Source of the DNA: Desulfuromonadales bacterium
Lineage (GTDB): Bacteria > Desulfobacterota > Desulfuromonadia > Desulfuromonadales > JAAXQG01
Direction of reading: 5' to 3'
DNA length: 38,472 nucleotides
Assembly (NCBI GenBank): GCA_012974445.1
Contig: JAAXQG010000182.1
Location: 1 to 38,472 of the forward strand
The notes below the pieces were generated by a model. The model was not told the origin of the DNA. It saw only the letters and a list, made by a program, of their open reading frames with translations, and ran no database searches. The position numbers were made by a program, and so were the translations under genes. Below, piece by piece: positions 8,898 through 26,029 of the stretch (within the stretch, counting starts at the first letter, position 1; every line of letters begins with the position of its first letter).

Positions 8898-10790
8898 ATG
8901 GGCCCTGAAAATAGCCAGCCGATACAGAAACCGAACATAAGGTTCGTACTGTCTTTCCTGTTGCCACTAGGCGTATTTCTGACTCTGCTCATCGCGGGAC
9001 TTGCCCTGACTCATCAGGTCGAGATTCACCACAAAAATGAACAGCGTCACCGGACCGAGAGCTTTGCGGAGAATCAGGCAAAATCGATGGAACGCTTCAT
9101 CCATCGCTCCATGGCGGCAACCTACGCCCTGGGCGCCGTCGTTCGAGATCAGGAGCATGTCTTAGACAACCGGAAATTTGAAACCCTCAGCGAGGAATTA
9201 CTCAAAAGCTTCCCCGGAATTACCAATCTTCAACTGGCCCCAGGCGGAATCATCGGCAAGATTCATCCTCTTGCCGGCAACGAACCGGCCCTTGGACACA
9301 ACCTGCTCGCGGACCCGCTTCGCAACAAGGAAGCCCACCTGGCCGTAAACACCGGTAAGCTGACGCTGGCGGGCCCCTTTCCCCTGATTCAGGGGGGAGT
9401 CGCCGTCATCGGCCGCTATCCAGTCTTTGTGATCGACAACGACGGAATAGAAACCTTCTGGGGCTTCACAACGGCCGTGATGCAGCTCTCCGACCTGCTG
9501 GCAGGCAGTGGGCTGCCCCAGACGCTCGTTGATCGATACGCCTACGAGCTATGGCGACTGCTTCCCGACACGGGAGAAAAACAAATTTTTGCCCGCAGCC
9601 AGGCCCTGCCGATCAATCCAGTATCCGCCGACATTCTGGTGCCCAACGGCAACTGGACCCTCTCCATCTCCCCCCTGATCGGTTGGGAGTCTCCCCCGGA
9701 GGTCCTGCAAGGCAGGGCTCTGAGCATCGCCCTGGCCCTTCTTGGCACGGGATTCATCATTGCCCTGATGCGCCAGCCTCAGCATCTTCAACGTATCGTC
9801 GAGGAGCGCACCCGGGCCCTGGAAGAAACCAATGACGAACTGTTGATGGAAATTCACGAGCGCCAGCAAGCCGAAGAGTCCCTGGTGGCCGCCCGTAAGG
9901 AACTGGAACGGCGAGTGATTGAACGCACTGCAAAACTCAGCGCCGCCAACCTGGCTCTGACGGACGCTCTGGCCGCCACCGAAAATGCCATAGAGCAGCT
10001 TATCCAGTCGGAAAAACTCGCCGCTCTGGGCGGATTGGTCGCCGGGGTCGCCCATGAAATCAACACCCCGGTGGGAGTCGGGGTCACGGCTGTGAGCTAC
10101 CTTGAAGAGATGACCGGCAAGATCATCCGAGATCTCGAAGCCAACCGGCTGAAAAAATCCTCACTGGAGAAATATCTGAGCCTGGCCGCGGAGGCGACCC
10201 ACTCCATCCACTGCAACCTGCGCCGAGCCAGCGAAATGATCCACAGTTTCAAACAGGTGGCCGTTGACCAGTCCAGCGAGGGACGCAGGCGATTTGATTT
10301 CAATGAATATCTGGACGAAATACTGCTGAGCCTTCGCCCCAAGCTCAAAAAGTCCTCTCATCAGATTCGTATCGAATGCCCGCAGAAGCTGGAGATCGAC
10401 AGTTACCCCGGAGCCTTCTCCCAGATTCTAAGCAACCTGCTGTTCAACTCCTTCCATCATGCCTTCGATGAAGGGATCCAGGGGGAGATCCTGATCAGAG
10501 TCTCGCGGCACGATGAAATGCTGCAGCTCCATTATGGAGATAACGGGCGGGGAATGGACCGGGAGATGCTCGGCAGAATTTTCGACCCCTTCTACACCAC
10601 CAAACGAGGGCAGGGGGGAAGCGGCCTGGGGATGCACATCGTCTACAATCTGGTTACCCGGTCGCTGGGAGGCAAGATCTTCTCGACCAGCGCCCCGGGC
10701 AAAGGGACCTCCTTTGACATCATCATCCCCCTGACTGCCCCTGCCCCAGAAATCAAAACGGAGGAAAGCGCCAATGCTACTGCCTCATAA
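8898..10790 (+). CDS. CHASE-type sensor histidine kinase
   Basis: N-terminal TM plus CHASE-like extracellular region, second TM, H-box VAHEINTPVG, N-box NLLFNSFHHAF, G1 DNGRGM, F-box FDPFYTT, G2 GSGLGM. The ORF track starts at a TTG (8889); ATG at 8898 is preferred. Confidence 0.88.
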   Translation: MGPENSQPIQKPNIRFVLSFLLPLGVFLTLLIAGLALTHQVEIHHKNEQRHRTESFAENQAKSMERFIHRSMAATYALGAVVRDQEHVLDNRKFETLSEELLKSFPGITNLQLAPGGIIGKIHPLAGNEPALGHNLLADPLRNKEAHLAVNTGKLTLAGPFPLIQGGVAVIGRYPVFVIDNDGIETFWGFTTAVMQLSDLLAGSGLPQTLVDRYAYELWRLLPDTGEKQIFARSQALPINPVSADILVPNGNWTLSISPLIGWESPPEVLQGRALSIALALLGTGFIIALMRQPQHLQRIVEERTRALEETNDELLMEIHERQQAEESLVAARKELERRVIERTAKLSAANLALTDALAATENAIEQLIQSEKLAALGGLVAGVAHEINTPVGVGVTAVSYLEEMTGKIIRDLEANRLKKSSLEKYLSLAAEATHSIHCNLRRASEMIHSFKQVAVDQSSEGRRRFDFNEYLDEILLSLRPKLKKSSHQIRIECPQKLEIDSYPGAFSQILSNLLFNSFHHAFDEGIQGEILIRVSRHDEMLQLHYGDNGRGMDREMLGRIFDPFYTTKRGQGGSGLGMHIVYNLVTRSLGGKIFSTSAPGKGTSFDIIIPLTAPAPEIKTEESANATAS

Positions 10791-12339
10791 CTCCACCAGC
10801 ACGGACCGGGACGAGCTGTTTTTCGCAGCCGAAGAGGAGATCCCCTCCCCCTGCACAGCTGCCCCCTGGAAACTGCTGATTGTCGATGACGAAAAAGAGG
10901 TTCACAGCATCACCCGCCTGGTGCTGGAGGATTTCCGTTTCGATGACCGTGGGCTTGAATTTTACAGCGCCTACAGCGCCGCAGAGGCCAACAATCTGCT
11001 GGCAACCCACCCGGATCTGGCCGTCGTGCTGCTCGACGTGGTCATGGAAACGGACCACTCGGGGCTGGACGTGGTGCGCTACATCCGGGAGGAGCTCAAG
11101 AACCGCTTCCTTCGTATCATCCTGCGTACCGGCCAGCCCGGCCACGCCCCCGAAAGCCAGGTGGTGCTGGAATACGACATCAACGACTACAAGGAGAAAA
11201 CCGAGCTCACCTCCCAGAAACTCATCACCACGATCATCTCTTCCCTGCGGGCCTACCGGGATCTGCTCACCATCGAGCGAAGCCGACAGGGCCTGGAGCA
11301 TATCATGACCTCCTCCCGGCGGCTCTTTGAGCGCCCTGGACGGCAGCGTTTCATGGGAGAGCTGCTCAACCAGTTCGCCGAGCTGCTGAGTATCTCTCAC
11401 AACATGCTCCCGGGGGAACTCTCAGGGTTTGCCGCCTCGACGAGCGAAGGGACATCGGTGATCAGTTCGGCCATCGGATCCTTCAGTCCTCTGGTGGGAG
11501 AGCCCCTGGAGGCCATCGAAGACCCCCTGTGCCTCTATAACTGCCGCCAGGCGCTGGCGCGCAGAGAGAACCGGCTCTCCAGCCAGTCCTATACCGGCTT
11601 TTTCTGCAACCCCCTGGGGCAGAGCAACCTGATCCACCTCCAGACCCCCCGAGTGCTGGGAGAGCTGGACAGCGGACTGCTGAGGGTTTTTTCCTCCTAT
11701 ATGGGGGCGGCTATCGAGAATCGTTTTTTGACTCTGGAGATCGCCGACACTCAGAAAGAGCTGATCTGGACTCTCGGGGAGGTCGTTGAAAACCGATCCA
11801 AGGAAACGGCCCACCATGTTCGCCGTGTCGCTGAGTACTCGACCCTTCTGGGGCAGATTCATGGTCTCGGTGACGATGAGATCGAGACCCTGCGCCTGGC
11901 TTCTCCGATGCATGATGTCGGCAAGATCGGGGTACCTGACGCCATACTGAACAAACCCGGAGCCCTCACGGACGAGGAGTATCGGGTGATAACCAGTCAC
12001 ACGACCATCGGGCATGACATTCTCAAGAGCTCAAGACGGGGCGTCATGCAGGCCGCCGCCATCATCGCCCTGCAGCACCACGAGTACTGGAACGGTCGGG
12101 GCTATCCGAATCGGCTCTCCGGCGAGGATATTCATATCTACGGACGTATCACGGCCCTTGTGGATGTCTTCGATGCCCTGGGAACAAAACGGGTCTATCG
12201 CGGCGCCTGGGAACTTGAGCGCATTCTCGATCTGATCCGCAGCGAGCGGGGCAAGATGTTCGATCCCTTCCTGGTGGATCTCTTCTTCGATCATCTTGAC
12301 GATTTCCTGCTCATTCGCAGGGCCTACCCTGACGATTGA
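10774..12339 (+). CDS. Response regulator: REC + DUF3369-like + HD-GYP phosphodiesterase
   Basis: REC motif LLIVDDEKEV...VVLLDVVME...K. HD-GYP motifs MHDVGKIGVP and QHHEYWNGRGYP. Overlaps the upstream kinase by 17 nt. Confidence 0.93.
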   Translation: MLLPHNSTSTDRDELFFAAEEEIPSPCTAAPWKLLIVDDEKEVHSITRLVLEDFRFDDRGLEFYSAYSAAEANNLLATHPDLAVVLLDVVMETDHSGLDVVRYIREELKNRFLRIILRTGQPGHAPESQVVLEYDINDYKEKTELTSQKLITTIISSLRAYRDLLTIERSRQGLEHIMTSSRRLFERPGRQRFMGELLNQFAELLSISHNMLPGELSGFAASTSEGTSVISSAIGSFSPLVGEPLEAIEDPLCLYNCRQALARRENRLSSQSYTGFFCNPLGQSNLIHLQTPRVLGELDSGLLRVFSSYMGAAIENRFLTLEIADTQKELIWTLGEVVENRSKETAHHVRRVAEYSTLLGQIHGLGDDEIETLRLASPMHDVGKIGVPDAILNKPGALTDEEYRVITSHTTIGHDILKSSRRGVMQAAAIIALQHHEYWNGRGYPNRLSGEDIHIYGRITALVDVFDALGTKRVYRGAWELERILDLIRSERGKMFDPFLVDLFFDHLDDFLLIRRAYPDD

Positions 12340-15788: not shown

Positions 15789-17059
15789 TCAGGGCGCAAG
15801 CTGCTGCTCAGCCCTTTGACGCAGCTGGGGATCCAACCCGGGAAAAGCCAGTACCCCCTCGAGCATCTTCCGCCCCTGGCGGGTCCAACCTTTAAGCAGA
15901 TAAGCCTCGGCCAGCTGAAGTAGCAGGGTTGGATTATGGGGATCACCCTTGAGCGCGTTGTTGAGTGCATCGACGACCTTGTCAGGATTTTTCCCCCGCC
16001 GCAGCCAGAACCCCGCCAGCGCTAGAGCGGTGGAGCCTCCACCGCAACCGCCTCCGGGAATCCTCATAAATAAAGCCTCGGCCTGGCCCAACTCTCCCTG
16101 CCCCTCCAGAATACTTCCCATCAGCTCCAGAAGCTCAGCATCTGCTGCGCCAAGTGCCAGAGCCTTCTGACCTTCGGCCAGGGCCTCCTCCAGCTTCCCG
16201 GCCTGCGCAAGCATATGAGCCAGACTCTGATGGCAGAAGGGAGCAAACTCAGGGCGCTGCTGCCCCTTGACAAGGAGCTCCCGAGCTCGTTCGTGCTCAC
16301 TGGCGTGACGCTCCAGATCGACAAGGGTCACAAAAGAAACCAGCGAGTCTGGATCACAGGCCAGTGCGGTCTCCACATCGACGCGCGCGGCCTCGATACG
16401 GCCGCAGCGCAGAAGAAGAGCACCCCGTTCAAAGAAAAACAGGTCGTCACGCTCTGAGGCGTCCAGGGCGTCGAAGGCCGCCAGGGCCGGATCATTCTCG
16501 CCGGCCTGAGCCAGCAGAAAAGCCGTGTGAAACCCGTCAGATTTAGCAAGGTAACGCTTCGCCGTCTCCGGCGAATAAGAGCTAAGCACCAGCTCCAGCT
16601 CGATATCTCTGTCCAGCGTCGGCGCACCATCCACAGAACTCGAATCTTGGGACTTCACGGGACCGCAACTGCCCGAACAACTCTTGGAAACGAGCGGTTT
16701 GGGGACATCAGGCAAAACCGTCTGAGCTTTTGCGGAAAGGGCCAGCCTCAGGGCATTGATGCGCGAAACCAGATCGGCTTGATCACCGGCAAGGGGCAGC
16801 GCAAGATCCAGATGCTCACGGGCCTTATCGAACTGCTGCCCGCGGACAAAAGCTTCGGCCTCATCAAGATTGAGTGCGGCAAGCTCTGCGGCTGCCTGCC
16901 GCAACAGCTGGTTGCGCTCCAGTCGGCTCTGCTCGTCCAGCTCAGAGTCCCCCAGCCCCTTGCTTCGCCCCAGAGCCCTGGCCCACTGACGAGTATTCAC
17001 ATCTGCCCTTAAGGCATCGAGTGCATCCTGTGACTTGAAAAGCCTACTCAAAAATTTCA
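15789..17059 (-). CDS. TPR-repeat protein
   Basis: ORF 15789..17084. Likely start is an internal Met (MKFLSRLFKSQDALDALRADVNTRQWARALG), near 17059-17060. Repeated helical TPR-like segments (LAQAGKLEEALAEGQKALALGAADAELLELMGSILEGQGELGQAEAL). Confidence 0.8.
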
Positions 17060-17110
17060 TCAGAATCTCCCTGAATGGGTTCAAGCGCCAGCGTTTATCC
17101 GGCTGAGAAA

Positions 17111-17126
17111 TGGCACATCAAGTGCA
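17111..17126 (+). promoter_or_regulatory. Candidate sigma-54 (-24/-12) promoter TGGCACA-TCAA-GTGCA
   Basis: TGGCAC -24 element and GTGCA -12 element with exact GG-N10-GC spacing, in the divergent intergenic region upstream of the ORF at 17168. Confidence 0.55.
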
Positions 17127-17167
17127 TGATTATGAAAGAAACAACTGCAACAACAAAGGAGGTAACC

Positions 17168-17398
17168 ATGAGTGCAACAAAAAAACTCTGTCGCCGCTTC
17201 GGCAAAGTAGCCGTTGATCTGGGATTCATCAGTGCGAGACAACTTCAGAACGCCATGAACGAGCAGGTGGAAGACAACCTGAACGAGCGCCCCCATCGGG
17301 TCATAGGTTCAATCCTCCTGGATCATGGCTGGATGACCCACGGGCAGATCGAAACGGTGCTGACCGCCATGTTTCAGGAAGAGCGAGGCAAGCTCTAA
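17168..17398 (+). CDS. 76-aa stand-alone MshEN-like (GspE_N-type) small protein
   Basis: ATG 17168 with GGAGG RBS at 17159. Two 24-residue motif copies: RFGKVAVDLGFISARQLQNAMNEQ and VIGSILLDHGWMTHGQIETVLTAM. Confidence 0.75.
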   Translation: MSATKKLCRRFGKVAVDLGFISARQLQNAMNEQVEDNLNERPHRVIGSILLDHGWMTHGQIETVLTAMFQEERGKL

Positions 17399-17418: not shown

Positions 17419-18525
17419 CTACCCTGAGCCCTGATACCTTTTCATGAATCGACGATCGATAAAATCCTTGAACCGAAAAGCCAGTCGCCCCTCATAGACC
17501 CGTTCCCCTTTCCAGGCAATAGCCCGGCCGCCACCCATATTGAGTATCAGCATATAGGCGCTCTGGGGGTCAAAGGTTCGAAGAGCTGTCCCTTTGAGGC
17601 TTGCCAGTAGATTGTGGCGCAGCACCGGATTCTGGCGCACCGCATACACCCCTACCTTATCCAACGAGCCGCAGGCGTGGTCTACGCAATCGCCCCCCCC
17701 GAAAATTTCACCATGCCCGAGGGATCTGAGATGAGCGTCGACCAGAAGCCCTCCACTGGCGCCGGTCTGCAGCCGCGCCTCGGAAAAGAGTGCCGGAGGC
17801 CTGACCCCGGTGGCATAAAGCGTCAGGTCGCTGCGGTGCCTGCGGCCGCTCTCCAGAACGACAGCGTTCGATTCCCTGACGAGAACCCCATCATTTTCCT
17901 GCACGTCGATTTGCCTGGCCTTCAGAGACTGGCGCACCAGTTGTCTGACTCTTGCCGGAGCCTGCCCCAGAAGTTCATGACGGCTGCGCAGACATATCCT
18001 AACCGGGCGCCGCTGATCCTGGGCGATTTGCCACAGGGCGCAGGCCAGTTCGACGGCGGCGGCCCCTCCCCCGGCCACGGTAAAGACCGGTGGGGTAGAG
18101 CCCCTGATCAGCTCAATGGCCCGATGCCGGGCCCGAAGCAGTTGTTCGATAGGTTTGACGGCAAATGAGTTTTCGTCGCAACGCAGCGCCGGGGTAAGAA
18201 CAACGGCACTGCCCAGATTGACCGAGAGCAGGTCGTAGGACTCTTCGCCCCCGGACTCCAGGCGGAGAATTCGCCGATGGGGGTCGATGGCAAGCACCCG
18301 ATCTGAAACAAAGACTCCCCCCTGCTGCTCCACCATGCTGCGCACATCGAAGCAGCACTGCTCTCTGGTGTAGCGCCCGGAGAGCAGTCCGGGCCCCATG
18401 CCGGAATAATAATGCAGATCGCCAGCACTGATGACCCGCACCTGCGCTCCGGCCTTGCGAAAGTCTTCAAGATGAAGCAAAGACTCCAGATGAGCATGTC
18501 CTGCACCGGCCAGTACCAATTTCAT
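17419..18525 (-). CDS. FAD/NAD(P)-dependent oxidoreductase, resembles the SelD-associated family (TIGR03169-like)
   Basis: LVLAGAGHAHLESL N-terminus, YYSGMGPGLLSGRYT, VAGGGAAAVELA second nucleotide-binding motif, GEIFGGGDCVD. Confidence 0.82.
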   Translation of the reverse strand: MKLVLAGAGHAHLESLLHLEDFRKAGAQVRVISAGDLHYYSGMGPGLLSGRYTREQCCFDVRSMVEQQGGVFVSDRVLAIDPHRRILRLESGGEESYDLLSVNLGSAVVLTPALRCDENSFAVKPIEQLLRARHRAIELIRGSTPPVFTVAGGGAAAVELACALWQIAQDQRRPVRICLRSRHELLGQAPARVRQLVRQSLKARQIDVQENDGVLVRESNAVVLESGRRHRSDLTLYATGVRPPALFSEARLQTGASGGLLVDAHLRSLGHGEIFGGGDCVDHACGSLDKVGVYAVRQNPVLRHNLLASLKGTALRTFDPQSAYMLILNMGGGRAIAWKGERVYEGRLAFRFKDFIDRRFMKRYQGSG

Positions 18526-18561: not shown

Positions 18562-19890
18562 CTAATCCAGAGGCCAGTGCGTCTCAAAGCCTTCGGGGAA
18601 AAAGTTGTCCCGGGTCCGGTTGAAATAACCGTACTGCAACCCTGGCACCCGCGCCTTGACCTGCTCAAGCATCTGCCGCATGCCGATACCCTGCTCGCTT
18701 GCGCCCAGAGCGTCGAGATAGAGGGAGGGATCGATATTGAGGTTACGCATCTGCACCAGGTCGACCCCGGCACTCTCCACCAACTGAACCAGGGCGTCGA
18801 TTTCGCTCTGCCGGTCTGTTACTCCCGGGAAAACCAGATAATTGAGCATGGTGAAGAGGCCCTTTTTCTTGGCCCGGTGAACCGATTCGACGACATCGGA
18901 AAACTGATAACCCTGGGGACGATAGTAGGCGTTATACAGGGGCTCCTGGCAGGAGTTGAGAGAGACCCGGATCGAATCGATTCCCGCATCGGCCAGCTGA
19001 TCTACAGCGTCGGGAATCGAGGCGTTGGAGTTGAAATTGATGGTTCCGCGACTCGTCGCAAGACGCATGCGGCGCACTGACTCGGCAATGGTATCGGCCT
19101 GAAGGATCGGATCGCCCTCGCACCCCTGACCGAAGGAGACGATTGCATTTTCGGCCTGCGTAAGATGGGGAATGGCGATCTCGCAAAGCTCCTCGGGGGT
19201 GGGAACGAAGGTCAGGCGATCCTGGCTGGAAGGGCAGCACTCGGGCGCCTCCTGCAGGGAGATACATCCCAGGCAGCGCGAGTTGCAGACAGGGGAGCTG
19301 GGCAGCGGGGCTTCCCAGCGCTTAAAAAATAGATTTTTGGCGGCAAAACAATGATAGTCCAGAGCACAGCGCGAAAGCTGCTCCAGCAGACGATTTTCAG
19401 GATTATCCTTGAGCACTTGACGAACCAGGGGATCGAGCTTGCGGTCATCGAAATGGTCCGGCTCCCACTGCTGGTTGGCATCGACCTTGACCGCAGCGAC
19501 ATAGAATCGTTCTTCCTCAACGCACCAGCCAACGGCCGTGTAGGCCCAGAGAGGCAGGGTGATTTCTTTTCGGCCATAGTCCGCTGCAGGCAGCAGGGTT
19601 CGCATATAGGCCGGAGCGATAAAGGCAGAGACTGCCTGAGCCGCCCCTCCACCCCAGGAGCGTGGAAGCTCATCGACAGTCACCAGCTTTCCGCTGCGCT
19701 CATCGAATCCCATGGCAGGAGTGCCGGGGACGGAGAAGAGACGGCTGCCCTCGGGCAGCGCAATGAGCTCCGAGTCTAGCGGAGCCCTCACCTCGGAGCC
19801 GTTCATCCCGGCCATCAGCAGTCCGGGATATTCAAATGATTCACCACATTCATCGGCCACGACGGCCAGAATTGTTTTTTTCTTCGCCAT
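18562..19890 (-). CDS. Radical SAM protein
   Basis: CNSRCLGC (CxxxCxxC), FGQGCEGDP, NFNSNAS, RVSLNS. Start chosen at ATG 19890 (MAKKKTILAVVADE) rather than the 746-aa ORF. Confidence 0.88.
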   Translation of the reverse strand: MAKKKTILAVVADECGESFEYPGLLMAGMNGSEVRAPLDSELIALPEGSRLFSVPGTPAMGFDERSGKLVTVDELPRSWGGGAAQAVSAFIAPAYMRTLLPAADYGRKEITLPLWAYTAVGWCVEEERFYVAAVKVDANQQWEPDHFDDRKLDPLVRQVLKDNPENRLLEQLSRCALDYHCFAAKNLFFKRWEAPLPSSPVCNSRCLGCISLQEAPECCPSSQDRLTFVPTPEELCEIAIPHLTQAENAIVSFGQGCEGDPILQADTIAESVRRMRLATSRGTINFNSNASIPDAVDQLADAGIDSIRVSLNSCQEPLYNAYYRPQGYQFSDVVESVHRAKKKGLFTMLNYLVFPGVTDRQSEIDALVQLVESAGVDLVQMRNLNIDPSLYLDALGASEQGIGMRQMLEQVKARVPGLQYGYFNRTRDNFFPEGFETHWPLD

Positions 19891-20010
19891 AGTTATCACC
19901 CCAAAGATTCGTTCGTCGCACAAGCTATCACGAGACCCGCCCTGAAGCAATCCGGCGTTGGAAGGGCGAAATTCCTTTTCAGTCGTTGCAACCTTGGTTA
20001 TCTTGACCCC

Positions 20011-21768
20011 ATGCGAATTCTTTTTACGACCCTTCACAGCAAATACATCCACCCGAGCCTGGCCCTGCCCTGCCTCATGGCCTATGCCGGGGCCCACCTG
20101 CGGGGGGAGTTCCAGCTGCTGCGACACGAATACAGCGTTCATGAACCCAGGGAAAATGTGCTGGCGGCTCTGCTGGAGCAGCGGCCCTCTATCATCGCCT
20201 TTTCGGTTTATATCTGGAACCGCCGCGAGACCCTGGAGCTCTGCGAGAACCTCAAAAGGGTCGATCCGTCGCTCTTTATCGTCTTGGGGGGGCCGGAAGT
20301 CTCCTTTGAGCAGCAGTCCTTCTTCGAAGCCAATTCCGCGGTGGATGCCCTGATATGCGGCGAAGGGGAACAGGCTCTTAGCGACCTGGTGCAGGCCAGA
20401 ATAGATGGGAAAAGCTTCAGCGCCATCCCCGGAGTAACCTGCAAGAGCGAAGGCTCTGCGACCGTCGAAATAGGCAGTGAAGTTCTGGAGGATCTCGACC
20501 GCATCCCATCCCCCTTCAGGCAGGGACTGGTTGAGCTGGATAAGGGGTACGTCTACCTGGAGACGAGTCGAGGCTGCCCCTACAGCTGCATCTTCTGCAT
20601 GAGCGCCCTCGATAGCCGCGTGCGCTCCTTCAGCATGGAGCGCATCTGCTCGGACCTGGACCTGCTGATGGAGGCGGGAGTAAAGCAGATCAAACTCGTG
20701 GACCGGACCTTTAATTACAACCCCGGGCGGGCCAGAGAGATCTTTCGCTTCATCCTGGAGAAAAACCGGACAACGCACTTCCATTTCGAAATCGGAGCTC
20801 ATCTGCTCGATGAAGCAACCATCGAACTACTCGAAGAGGTACCGGAAGGACTGTTTCAGTTCGAGATCGGCGTCCAGTCCACATTAACCGAAACGCTCCA
20901 GCGCATGGGGCGAAACTGTTCACTGGAAAAAATCTACGAAAACGTCCGCCAACTTCGGCAGCGAACAAAAATCCATCTCCACCTGGATCTGATTGCCGGC
21001 TTGCCCGGCGAGGGTATCAGCTGCGTTCTGGAGTCTATCGACAAAGTGCTAGAGCTGAACCCTCACGAGCTGCAACTGGAGATCGTCAAGGTGCTGCCCG
21101 GCTCTCCCCTTCGCGCTCAGGCCGATGCTTTGGGACTGATTTACGCTCCGACGCCCCCCTACACTACGCTGAAAACAGCCGAAATGAGTTTTTCCGAATT
21201 GGAGCGACTGCGCCGAATCAGTCGCCTGCTCGATCTCACGGTCAACAGCTCGGCAATGAGATCTTTTACTTATGCGCTGGCCGAAAGCTTTGGGCGCCCC
21301 TCTGCAGCGCTGGTGGAGTTGGAGCGTTTCTGGAGCCAGCAGGACCTTTTTAGGGTGCCTATCGGGCGCAGGGAGCTCTTCGAGCAGCTGGGGCATTTCT
21401 CCGGACAGTGCCAGGAGCAGGAAACTGCCAATCGGTTGCAGGATGCTCTGGCGAGGGACTTTGCTTTGAGCGAAAAAGTCCAGCCGAACCGACTGCCTGA
21501 ATTTTTCCCGTCATCCTTGCCCCGGCAGGAGCTCGCGCTCTATCAGCAACAGATCAACGAGTGTCTCGCTTCGGGTGCAAGAGCCGAAACCCGTCAAAGC
21601 TGGCACCTGATGAAATACCGTACCCCCCTCGACAAACAGGGCAACAGGGTTGCCCTGTACCTCTACGGGTACCGCTCGGGGAAATCACCGTCCATCATCG
21701 AGCATATCCTTCATTCAAGACCGGCGGATGATGAGGCCCCCGATAAAGTCGGGATTCAGGTCCCGTAA
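20011..21768 (+). CDS. B12-binding-domain radical SAM protein (DUF4080-like)
   Basis: N-terminal cobalamin-binding-like domain (SIIAFSVYIWN, LGGPEVS), ETSRGCPYSCIFCMS cluster motif, QFEIGVQS. Confidence 0.9.
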   Translation: MRILFTTLHSKYIHPSLALPCLMAYAGAHLRGEFQLLRHEYSVHEPRENVLAALLEQRPSIIAFSVYIWNRRETLELCENLKRVDPSLFIVLGGPEVSFEQQSFFEANSAVDALICGEGEQALSDLVQARIDGKSFSAIPGVTCKSEGSATVEIGSEVLEDLDRIPSPFRQGLVELDKGYVYLETSRGCPYSCIFCMSALDSRVRSFSMERICSDLDLLMEAGVKQIKLVDRTFNYNPGRAREIFRFILEKNRTTHFHFEIGAHLLDEATIELLEEVPEGLFQFEIGVQSTLTETLQRMGRNCSLEKIYENVRQLRQRTKIHLHLDLIAGLPGEGISCVLESIDKVLELNPHELQLEIVKVLPGSPLRAQADALGLIYAPTPPYTTLKTAEMSFSELERLRRISRLLDLTVNSSAMRSFTYALAESFGRPSAALVELERFWSQQDLFRVPIGRRELFEQLGHFSGQCQEQETANRLQDALARDFALSEKVQPNRLPEFFPSSLPRQELALYQQQINECLASGARAETRQSWHLMKYRTPLDKQGNRVALYLYGYRSGKSPSIIEHILHSRPADDEAPDKVGIQVP

Positions 21769-23929: not shown

Positions 23930-24943
23930 CTACTCTTCCTCGGCTCCCTGCTGAATCATCTGCAGGATCTCCGGATCGGGGAAGTTCTCAATCTTCATCC
24001 CGAGAGTAAGTCCCATGTCGGCGAGAATGTCTTTAATCTCATTGAGCGATTTACGACCGAAGTTCTGGGTTTTCAGCATTTCGGCCTCGGATCTCTGCAC
24101 AAGATCGCCAATCAGTTTGATATCGGCATTCTTGAGACAGTTTGCGCTACGTACGGATAGTTCAAGCTCTTCAACACTGCGATACAGGTTGACATTGAAC
24201 TTGGACTCTTCCGCTACCTCTTGAGTTTCAGGCTCCTGAGTTTCATCGAAATTAATGAAAAGCTGAACCTGTTCCTTGAGGATTTTAGCCGCATAAGCAA
24301 CGGCCTCATCAGGGCGAACGCTTCCGTCAGAGTAGACCTCGAGGGTCAACTTGTCGTAGTCGGTAATCTGACCGACACGAGCATTACTGACGTTATAATT
24401 CACCTTGATAATCGGACTGAACACGGCGTCGATCGGAATGGTGCCAACAGGAGCCAGGGGGTCCCTGTTGCGATCAGCAGGGACATATCCCTTACCAATA
24501 CTAACCATCATTTCGATTTCGACGTCGGCATCCTTACCGCAAAAACAAATATGGTGATCGGGGTTGAGAACCTCAACATGAGAATCGGTAATCAGATCCC
24601 CAGCCTTGATCTCGCCAGCCCCTTTCTTCACAATGCGTATTTCACGGGACTCGTTACCATGCAGGCGAAGAAGAACACCCTTGAGGTTCAGAATGATGTC
24701 GGTGACATCTTCTGTAACACCGGTAACCGTAGAGAATTCGTGAAGAACCCCTTTGATTCGCACTGAGGTAATCGCTGCGCCCTGAAGAGAAGACAGGAGT
24801 ATACGGCGCAGTGAATTTCCGAGAGTTGTTCCGAACCCTCGCTCAAGCGGCTCGGCTACGAACTTTCCGTAACAAGCACTCAGAGTATCTTCATCGATCT
24901 GGAGTCTCTTCGGCTTGATCAGATCTCTCCAGTTTTTATACAT
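23930..24943 (-). CDS. rpoA: DNA-directed RNA polymerase subunit alpha
   Basis: [27 protein letters not shown] and alpha-[44 protein letters not shown]. Confidence 0.98.
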
Positions 24944-24982
24944 TCATACCCTCCATAGATGAGGAAGTACCCGTAGTTCCGG

Positions 24983-25612
24983 TTACTTGGAGTAAAGCTC
25001 GACAATCAGTCGCTCGTTGAACTCCGGAGTTGTCATCTCTGCACGCACAGGAAGAGTCTTGACGGTTCCCTCGAAGGCATCACGATTGAGTTCTACCCAG
25101 GAAGGAAGTCCGCGACGAAGAGCTCCGTCCAACGCTTCGTTGAAACGGGCCACCTTGCGGCTCTTTTCCTTGAGCGTGATCACATCACCGGGACGAACCA
25201 GGTAAGAAGGAATATTAACCTTACGCCCGTTCACCAGAAAGTGGTTCTGACGCGCCAGAGTTCTGGCCTCAGAGCGTGAGGAGGTGAAACCGAGTCGATA
25301 AAGAATGCTATCGAGGCGCCGCTCCAGCAGAACGAGTAGAGTCTCACCTGTAACACCCTTCATACGGTCGGCTTTAACGAAGTAGGAGCGGAACTGGTTT
25401 TCCAGCAGACCGTAGGTACGCTTGACGCGCTGCTTTTCACGGAGCTGTGTCCTGAAATCCGACACCTTGACACGAGCCTGACCATGCTGGCCGGGTGCGT
25501 AGTTTCTTCTCTCAACGCCGCACTTCTCGGTGTGGCATCTGTCCCCCTTGAGGAACAGTTTCATATTTTCTCTTCTGCAAAGGCGGCAGACAGGGCCTGT
25601 ATATCTAGCCAA
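24983..25612 (-). CDS. rpsD: 30S ribosomal protein S4 (Zn-binding, C+ type)
   Basis: [44 protein letters not shown]. Confidence 0.98.
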
Positions 25613-25633
25613 CGCGAATCCTCCTTAAAAAAA

Positions 25634-26029
25634 TTATACTCTTCTACGCTTGGGCGGACGGCAACCATTATGCGGAACAGGTGTGACATCCTTAATAAGG
25701 GTCACACGAAGTCCTGCAGCCTGGATAGCACGAAGAGCTGACTCGCGACCGGAACCAGGTCCCTTGACACGAACTTCTACTGCGCGCATTCCGTGTTCGG
25801 TAGCTTTTTTTGCAGCTTCTTCGGCAGCGATCTGAGCGGCAAAGGGAGTACTCTTACGAGAGCCCTTAAAGCCCTGACCACCAGCTGTCGCCCAGGAAAC
25901 AACATTACCGACGGGATCGGTAAAGGTCACAATGGTATTATTAAACGTTGCCTGGATGTGGGCAACACCATTGGGAATATTTTTTTTCTCTCTGCTCTTG
26001 CGAACGGTTTTCTTACCGGCCTTAGCCAT
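25634..26029 (-). CDS. rpsK: 30S ribosomal protein S11
   Basis: [30 protein letters not shown]...[13 protein letters not shown]. Confidence 0.98.

Follow-up and report, generated by a model that had tools for sequence, protein, structure and literature searches.

A short, free-standing MshEN_N-type protein from Desulfuromonadales, a putative c-di-GMP receptor and adaptor

We analyzed a 38,472-nucleotide stretch of contig JAAXQG010000182.1 from a Desulfuromonadales bacterium (referred to here as the window), which carries a stand-alone gene for an MshEN_N-type protein of 76 amino acids at positions 17168 to 17398 of the forward strand, stop codon included. The assignment draws on the sequence, the NCBIfam profile NF053729, 12 aligned homologues from the same order, and an AlphaFold2 model with its PDB matches. 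The open reading frame, its coordinates and length, and its two 24-residue stretches are exactly as an earlier interpretation made from the DNA letters (the sequence-only reading) had given them. From its N-terminal end, the protein has a short leading segment, motif I (residues 10 to 33), an 11-residue linker, motif II (residues 45 to 68) and eight further residues. A ribosome-binding site, visible in the sequence as an AGGAGGT region, precedes the ATG (17157 to 17163, forward strand). Two observations back the start at 17168, namely the GGAGGT shortly before it and the similar starting point of the homologues; a longer in-frame reading frame from 17075 is present, but homologues give it no support. 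By scan score, a possible sigma-54 (-24/-12) promoter (TGGCACATCAAGTGCA, 17111 to 17126, forward strand) lies 41 nt before the ATG. This site is the joint best among 13 sites in the window that score 13 or more, and sites of that score occur in 4 of 29 homologues from the order against 0.48 expected from shuffled sequences. High-scoring sigma-54-like sites are found in three f6 homologues. These counts are no more than suggestive of a sigma-54 promoter for the mini-MshEN gene. A sigma-70 promoter scan and an Rfam search gave no match.

On either side of the gene, which is not grouped with others, lie a divergent TPR gene (15789 to 17084) and a convergent oxidoreductase gene (17419 to 18525), and these neighbors are uninformative. 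The oxidoreductase (17419 to 18525, reverse strand) is of the TIGR03169 type, with a score of 252 bits that falls short of the 310 cut-off, and is encoded here as a separate protein; this type is usually found N-terminal to SelD.

The claim that the small protein is an MshEN-type domain proved correct. NF053729, a profile named for MshE-related c-di-GMP-binding domains, matches it with an E-value of 2.5e-13 and a score of 49.6 bits (cut-off, 38), which is far beyond chance, and all 12 aligned members match the same profile. Profile searching had been proposed as a check in the sequence-only reading. The Pfam profile PF05157 (MshEN) does not match the 76-residue protein, which is absent from the six PF05157 matches of the genome. 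NF053729 has 14 matches in the host genome, and the 76-residue protein is the sole one in a short frame (107 amino acids from stop to stop, against 291 or more for the others). A match to DUF4388 in the Pfam scan is weak (E-value of 9e-4) and below cut-off. The same scan gave no match to a PilZ domain, and the protein is absent from the seven PilZ matches of the genome.

Structure prediction, another check that had been proposed, found an MshEN fold. The AlphaFold2 model, run on the single sequence of the window protein alone, has a mean pLDDT of 83 and a pTM of 0.73, and its main helices (residues 3-17, 23-35, 46-53 and 58-74) follow the four-helix order of MshEN_N. When the model was compared with 350,542 PDB chains by Foldseek, the best six matches were MshE (5htl), PilF GSPII-B and PilF GSPII-A, with probabilities of 0.77 to 0.99; for 5htl the probability was 0.97 to 0.99 at an rmsd of 1.3 to 2.0 Å over about 60 columns. 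The E-values of these matches are weak, from 0.3 at best to 1.7, because the chain is so short; the predicted fold nevertheless points clearly and specifically to MshEN/GSPII structures. Furthermore, the sole match in a phmmer search of PDB sequences was 5htl, the N-domain of MshE, and PilF, MshE and PilB are recovered with the family profile. Assignment to the MshEN_N domain is therefore well supported by profile, fold and PDB matches together.

The sequence-only reading had also described the protein as free of an ATPase, and this is borne out: the Pfam scan found no T2SSE ATPase domain (PF00437) in the protein or its neighbors, the homologues are likewise stand-alone, and the T2SSE genes of the host genome sit on other contigs. 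A search of 58 relatives recovered stand-alone homologues (identity up to 58%, E-values down to 5e-25) from further families within the order. With a profile built from 12 sequences and a cut-off of E<=1e-9, matches came from 27 of the order's 136 genomes, all in short open frames and distributed over four lineages (families f1, f5, f6 and f8), and other families of the phylum also hold stand-alone copies. These homologues are about 69 to 122 amino acids long and occur in many genomes. In the four close pairs that could be scored by the Nei-Gojobori method, the other pairs being saturated at synonymous sites, dN/dS was 0.026, 0, 0.107 and 0.053; the stand-alone homologues are under purifying selection. 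Our data give good support to a conserved stand-alone MshEN_N family rather than the wreck of an ATPase. No relatives were found in phage records, plasmid records or viral contigs, and a mobile-element origin is not supported. A single-protein scan of genome contigs returned one locus only (in Stappia), which proved to be a false positive, since it lies within a longer reading frame of no relation. We found no description of a stand-alone MshEN family in the open-access article texts searched, and the free-standing family is apparently undescribed so far.

We aligned 56 sequences of the family, comprising 55 stand-alone proteins and one fusion. Motif I (RFGKVAVDLGFISARQLQNAMNEQ, 17195 to 17266, forward strand) retains its R, G and Q positions and follows the pattern RLGxx..LxxxLxxQ at R10, G12, L26, M30 and Q33, with a deviation from the consensus at position 2, where F replaces L. 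It is conserved across the family (R10 in 53 sequences, F11 in 55, G12 in 55 and Q33 in all 56). Motif II (VIGSILLDHGWMTHGQIETVLTAM, 17300 to 17371, forward strand) keeps Gly47 (55/56) and positions 46, 61 and 65 that are mostly hydrophobic, and has Val in place of Arg and Met in place of Gln. At position 45, the site of the motif-II Arg, V, I, L or M is found in 50 sequences and Arg in one; at position 68, the site of the motif-II Gln, M, L, I, V or F is found in 52 sequences and Gln in none. The linker (VEDNLNERPHR, V34 to R44, 17267 to 17299, forward strand) is 11 residues long, whereas the canonical MshEN linker has 5, and it ends in a near-invariant His-Arg pair (H43 in 56 of 56, R44 in 54). 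In canonical MshEN domains the linker is unconserved (PMC5013675), and the other MshEN domains of the same genome have short linkers. The long spacer and the loss of the leading R and the final Q from the second copy were thus rightly noticed in the sequence-only reading, but they are not the decay of one gene, being common to the whole stand-alone family. Conservation is focused on the ligand positions R10, G12, Q33 and G47, and the motif-II R/Q changes together with the linker His-Arg are a family signature. Since we looked for a canonical motif II (R and Q) behind a 5-residue linker and found V45, M68 and 11 residues instead, we class the protein as an MshEN variant rather than as a canonical member.

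We compared the protein with known MshEN systems. It shares with the MshEN_N of Vibrio cholerae MshE (5htl, NF053729) the two 24-residue motifs, the four-helix fold, the motif-I R, G and Q, the motif-II Gly and the hydrophobic clusters. It differs from MshE in lacking the ATPase and the MshEN_C subdomain, in its linker (11 against 5 residues, with the invariant His-Arg), in F at position 2, and in a motif II that has neither Arg nor Gln. GSPII-B of Thermus thermophilus PilF (8pdk) likewise has an aliphatic residue at the motif-II Arg site, but it keeps the motif-II Gln, has Lys instead of Arg in motif I and lies within an ATPase. The nearest fused ATPase relatives seen are the N-terminal domains of T2SSE ATPases in family f65 (L063-L067), which resemble the 76-residue protein in their long linker, a basic residue before motif II and replacement of the motif-II Gln. 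Unlike our protein, L064, the one member of f65 covered by the Pfam scan, has a second MshEN, of the canonical type, and a T2SSE domain fused behind its long-linker domain.

Each of the two MshE motifs binds one guanine, with the Gly and the residue after it contributing backbone amides, the Gln contacting ribose and phosphate, and the Arg stacking (PMC5013675). An isolated VcMshEN_N (residues 1-62) binds c-di-GMP with a KD of 0.35 µM (PMC5013675), and standing alone is therefore no obstacle to binding. The sequence-only reading had suggested that binding may be altered; a missing motif-II Arg by itself does not speak against binding, since PilF GSPII-B has Leu at this site and binds c-di-GMP at 6 nM, and its L196R variant binds 4-fold more weakly (PMC11731258). 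Changing the motif-II Gln of the same domain (Q218E) retained binding at 460 nM (PMC11731258), while PilF GSPII-A bound measurably only when each motif had its Gln and motif II its Arg (PMC12002112). An extended helix 1 impedes binding in PilF (PMC11731258, PMC12002112); the modelled helix 1 of the 76-residue protein spans residues 3 to 17. The helix, the GSPII-A result and the hydrophobic residue that nearly all members have at the motif-II Gln site count against binding. Because Leu is tolerated at the Arg site and an isolated MshEN_N binds, we consider c-di-GMP binding by the 76-residue protein plausible. Judging by conservation, His43-Arg44 may take over the lost Gln contact, and unless it compensates in this way, binding is predicted to be probably weaker than in canonical domains.

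We next considered candidate partners. The window does contain the HD-GYP gene that the sequence-only reading had mentioned as lying nearby (REC-DUF3369-HD-GYP, 10774 to 12339, 4.8 kb away, with four genes in between), but it is not conserved beside the homologues and is no evidence of a functional link. GGDEF domains are matched 31 times in the host genome, whose gene content points to a deltaproteobacterial lineage. In family f5 (four genomes) a HAMP-GGDEF cyclase gene comes before the mini-MshEN gene and a sensor kinase gene after it. In family f8 the mini-MshEN gene comes after a GDPD gene at 11 loci and faces a PBP1a-type gene at 11 loci. Families f31, f43 and f85 share a block beside the mini-MshEN gene at six loci; in L082 this block includes genes for a Ser/Thr kinase-TPR protein, a Cache-guanylate cyclase, a LysM-polysaccharide deacetylase and a TPR-LysM protein, and PP2C, FHA and VipA/VipB-like sheath genes lie close by. 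The sheath-like protein, of 522 amino acids, is a single chain that matches the profiles of both VipA and VipB of the type VI secretion sheath. In L080 (507 to 3398, reverse strand) a mini-MshEN domain forms the N-terminus of a 964-residue PAS-HisKA-HATPase-REC hybrid kinase. A pilus-type ATPase adjoins the gene in one case only among the neighbors scanned (L083, an MshEN-T2SSE-REC protein), and we rejected it as a partner by neighborhood. Neighbors vary by lineage and no partner is common to all; the theme of the neighborhoods is signal transduction, not a single machine. Such varied signaling neighbors therefore favor an adaptor with lineage-specific partners, keeping in mind that neighborhood does not imply interaction.

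With moderate confidence, we propose that the protein is a free-standing MshEN_N domain, a small receptor for c-di-GMP in the cytoplasm that also serves as an adaptor. The suggestion of a miniature receptor or adaptor in the sequence-only reading remains the best interpretation of its MshEN-type, stand-alone sequence. Motif I would hold one guanine, with R10 stacking, the backbone of G12 and K13 on the Hoogsteen edge, and Q33 on the ribose-phosphate. The other guanine would be held by G47 and a hydrophobic cluster of F11, I61 and L65. The second ribose-phosphate contact, made by the motif-II Gln in canonical domains, would be either lost or taken by H43-R44 of the linker. Depending on the ligand, the protein would dock on a partner that differs by lineage (i.e., a kinase, a cyclase or perhaps a motor ATPase), comparable to single-domain PilZ proteins. 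Those adaptors are an analogy in working only, being small free-standing c-di-GMP receptors that act via partners, with an unrelated fold and motif. More tentatively, and as a possibility rather than an expectation, the family might represent a new class of c-di-GMP receptor, in which an asymmetric MshEN site uses the linker His-Arg for the motif-II Gln and serves as a portable adaptor to lineage-specific kinases, cyclases and envelope enzymes.

We weighed this receptor and adaptor against three other explanations. A protein that keeps the MshEN fold, has lost c-di-GMP binding and acts only as a protein-protein adaptor is rather unlikely in our view, despite the absence of Gln and near-absence of Arg from motif II across the family and the precedent of the degenerate XpsE/GspE N-domains and PilF GSPII-A. 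XpsE (PMC5013675) and PilF GSPII-A (PMC12002112) do not bind, and their changes include the motif-II Arg/Gln positions; however, such degenerate domains also lose Gly or the motif-I Gln (G11V and G40L in XpsE, PMC5013675; H33 and A41 in PilF GSPII-A, PMC12002112), whereas R10, G12, Q33 and G47 are near-invariant across families of the phylum and would not obviously be needed by a scaffold.

A different ligand arrangement is improbable, whether a homodimer in which two chains each contribute an intact motif-I half-site to a single c-di-GMP or a motif I that binds a different guanine nucleotide. The consistent asymmetry between an intact motif I and an altered motif II would fit it, and MshEN_N is able to form an (MshEN_N)2 homodimer according to Wang et al. 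(PMC5013675), but the guanine clusters of MshEN draw on residues from the two motifs of a single chain, and the hydrophobic positions concerned (46, 61 and 65) are conserved here. We rejected as hardly credible an origin of the gene by chance or as a fragment or pseudogene derived from a PilB/GspE-type ATPase, which is contradicted by the existence of homologues and by the way they have diverged (dN/dS from 0 to 0.11). Its small size, the usual residence of MshEN domains on ATPases and the long-linker domains at the N-terminus of f65 T2SSE proteins might suggest such an origin, but the gene has its own ribosome-binding site and the Pfam scan found no T2SSE remnant beside it.

Most of what is known of MshEN domains concerns switches built into pilus and secretion motors, and into a few fused enzymes. 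If free-standing MshEN receptors prove true, c-di-GMP would gain a second kind of small diffusible adaptor besides the PilZ proteins. Furthermore, a site that retains one half and has its other half remodelled alike across families of the phylum would be a natural test of the contacts that MshEN binding needs.

Downstream in the window, two long reading frames on opposite strands (18562 to 20802, reverse, and 20011 to 21768, forward) overlap by about 790 bases, and the true start of the first, a radical SAM frame, is probably further in than listed. At 23930 to 26029 (reverse strand), rpoA, rpsD and rpsK lie in a row, probably the end of a ribosomal protein operon that is unrelated to the mini-MshEN gene.
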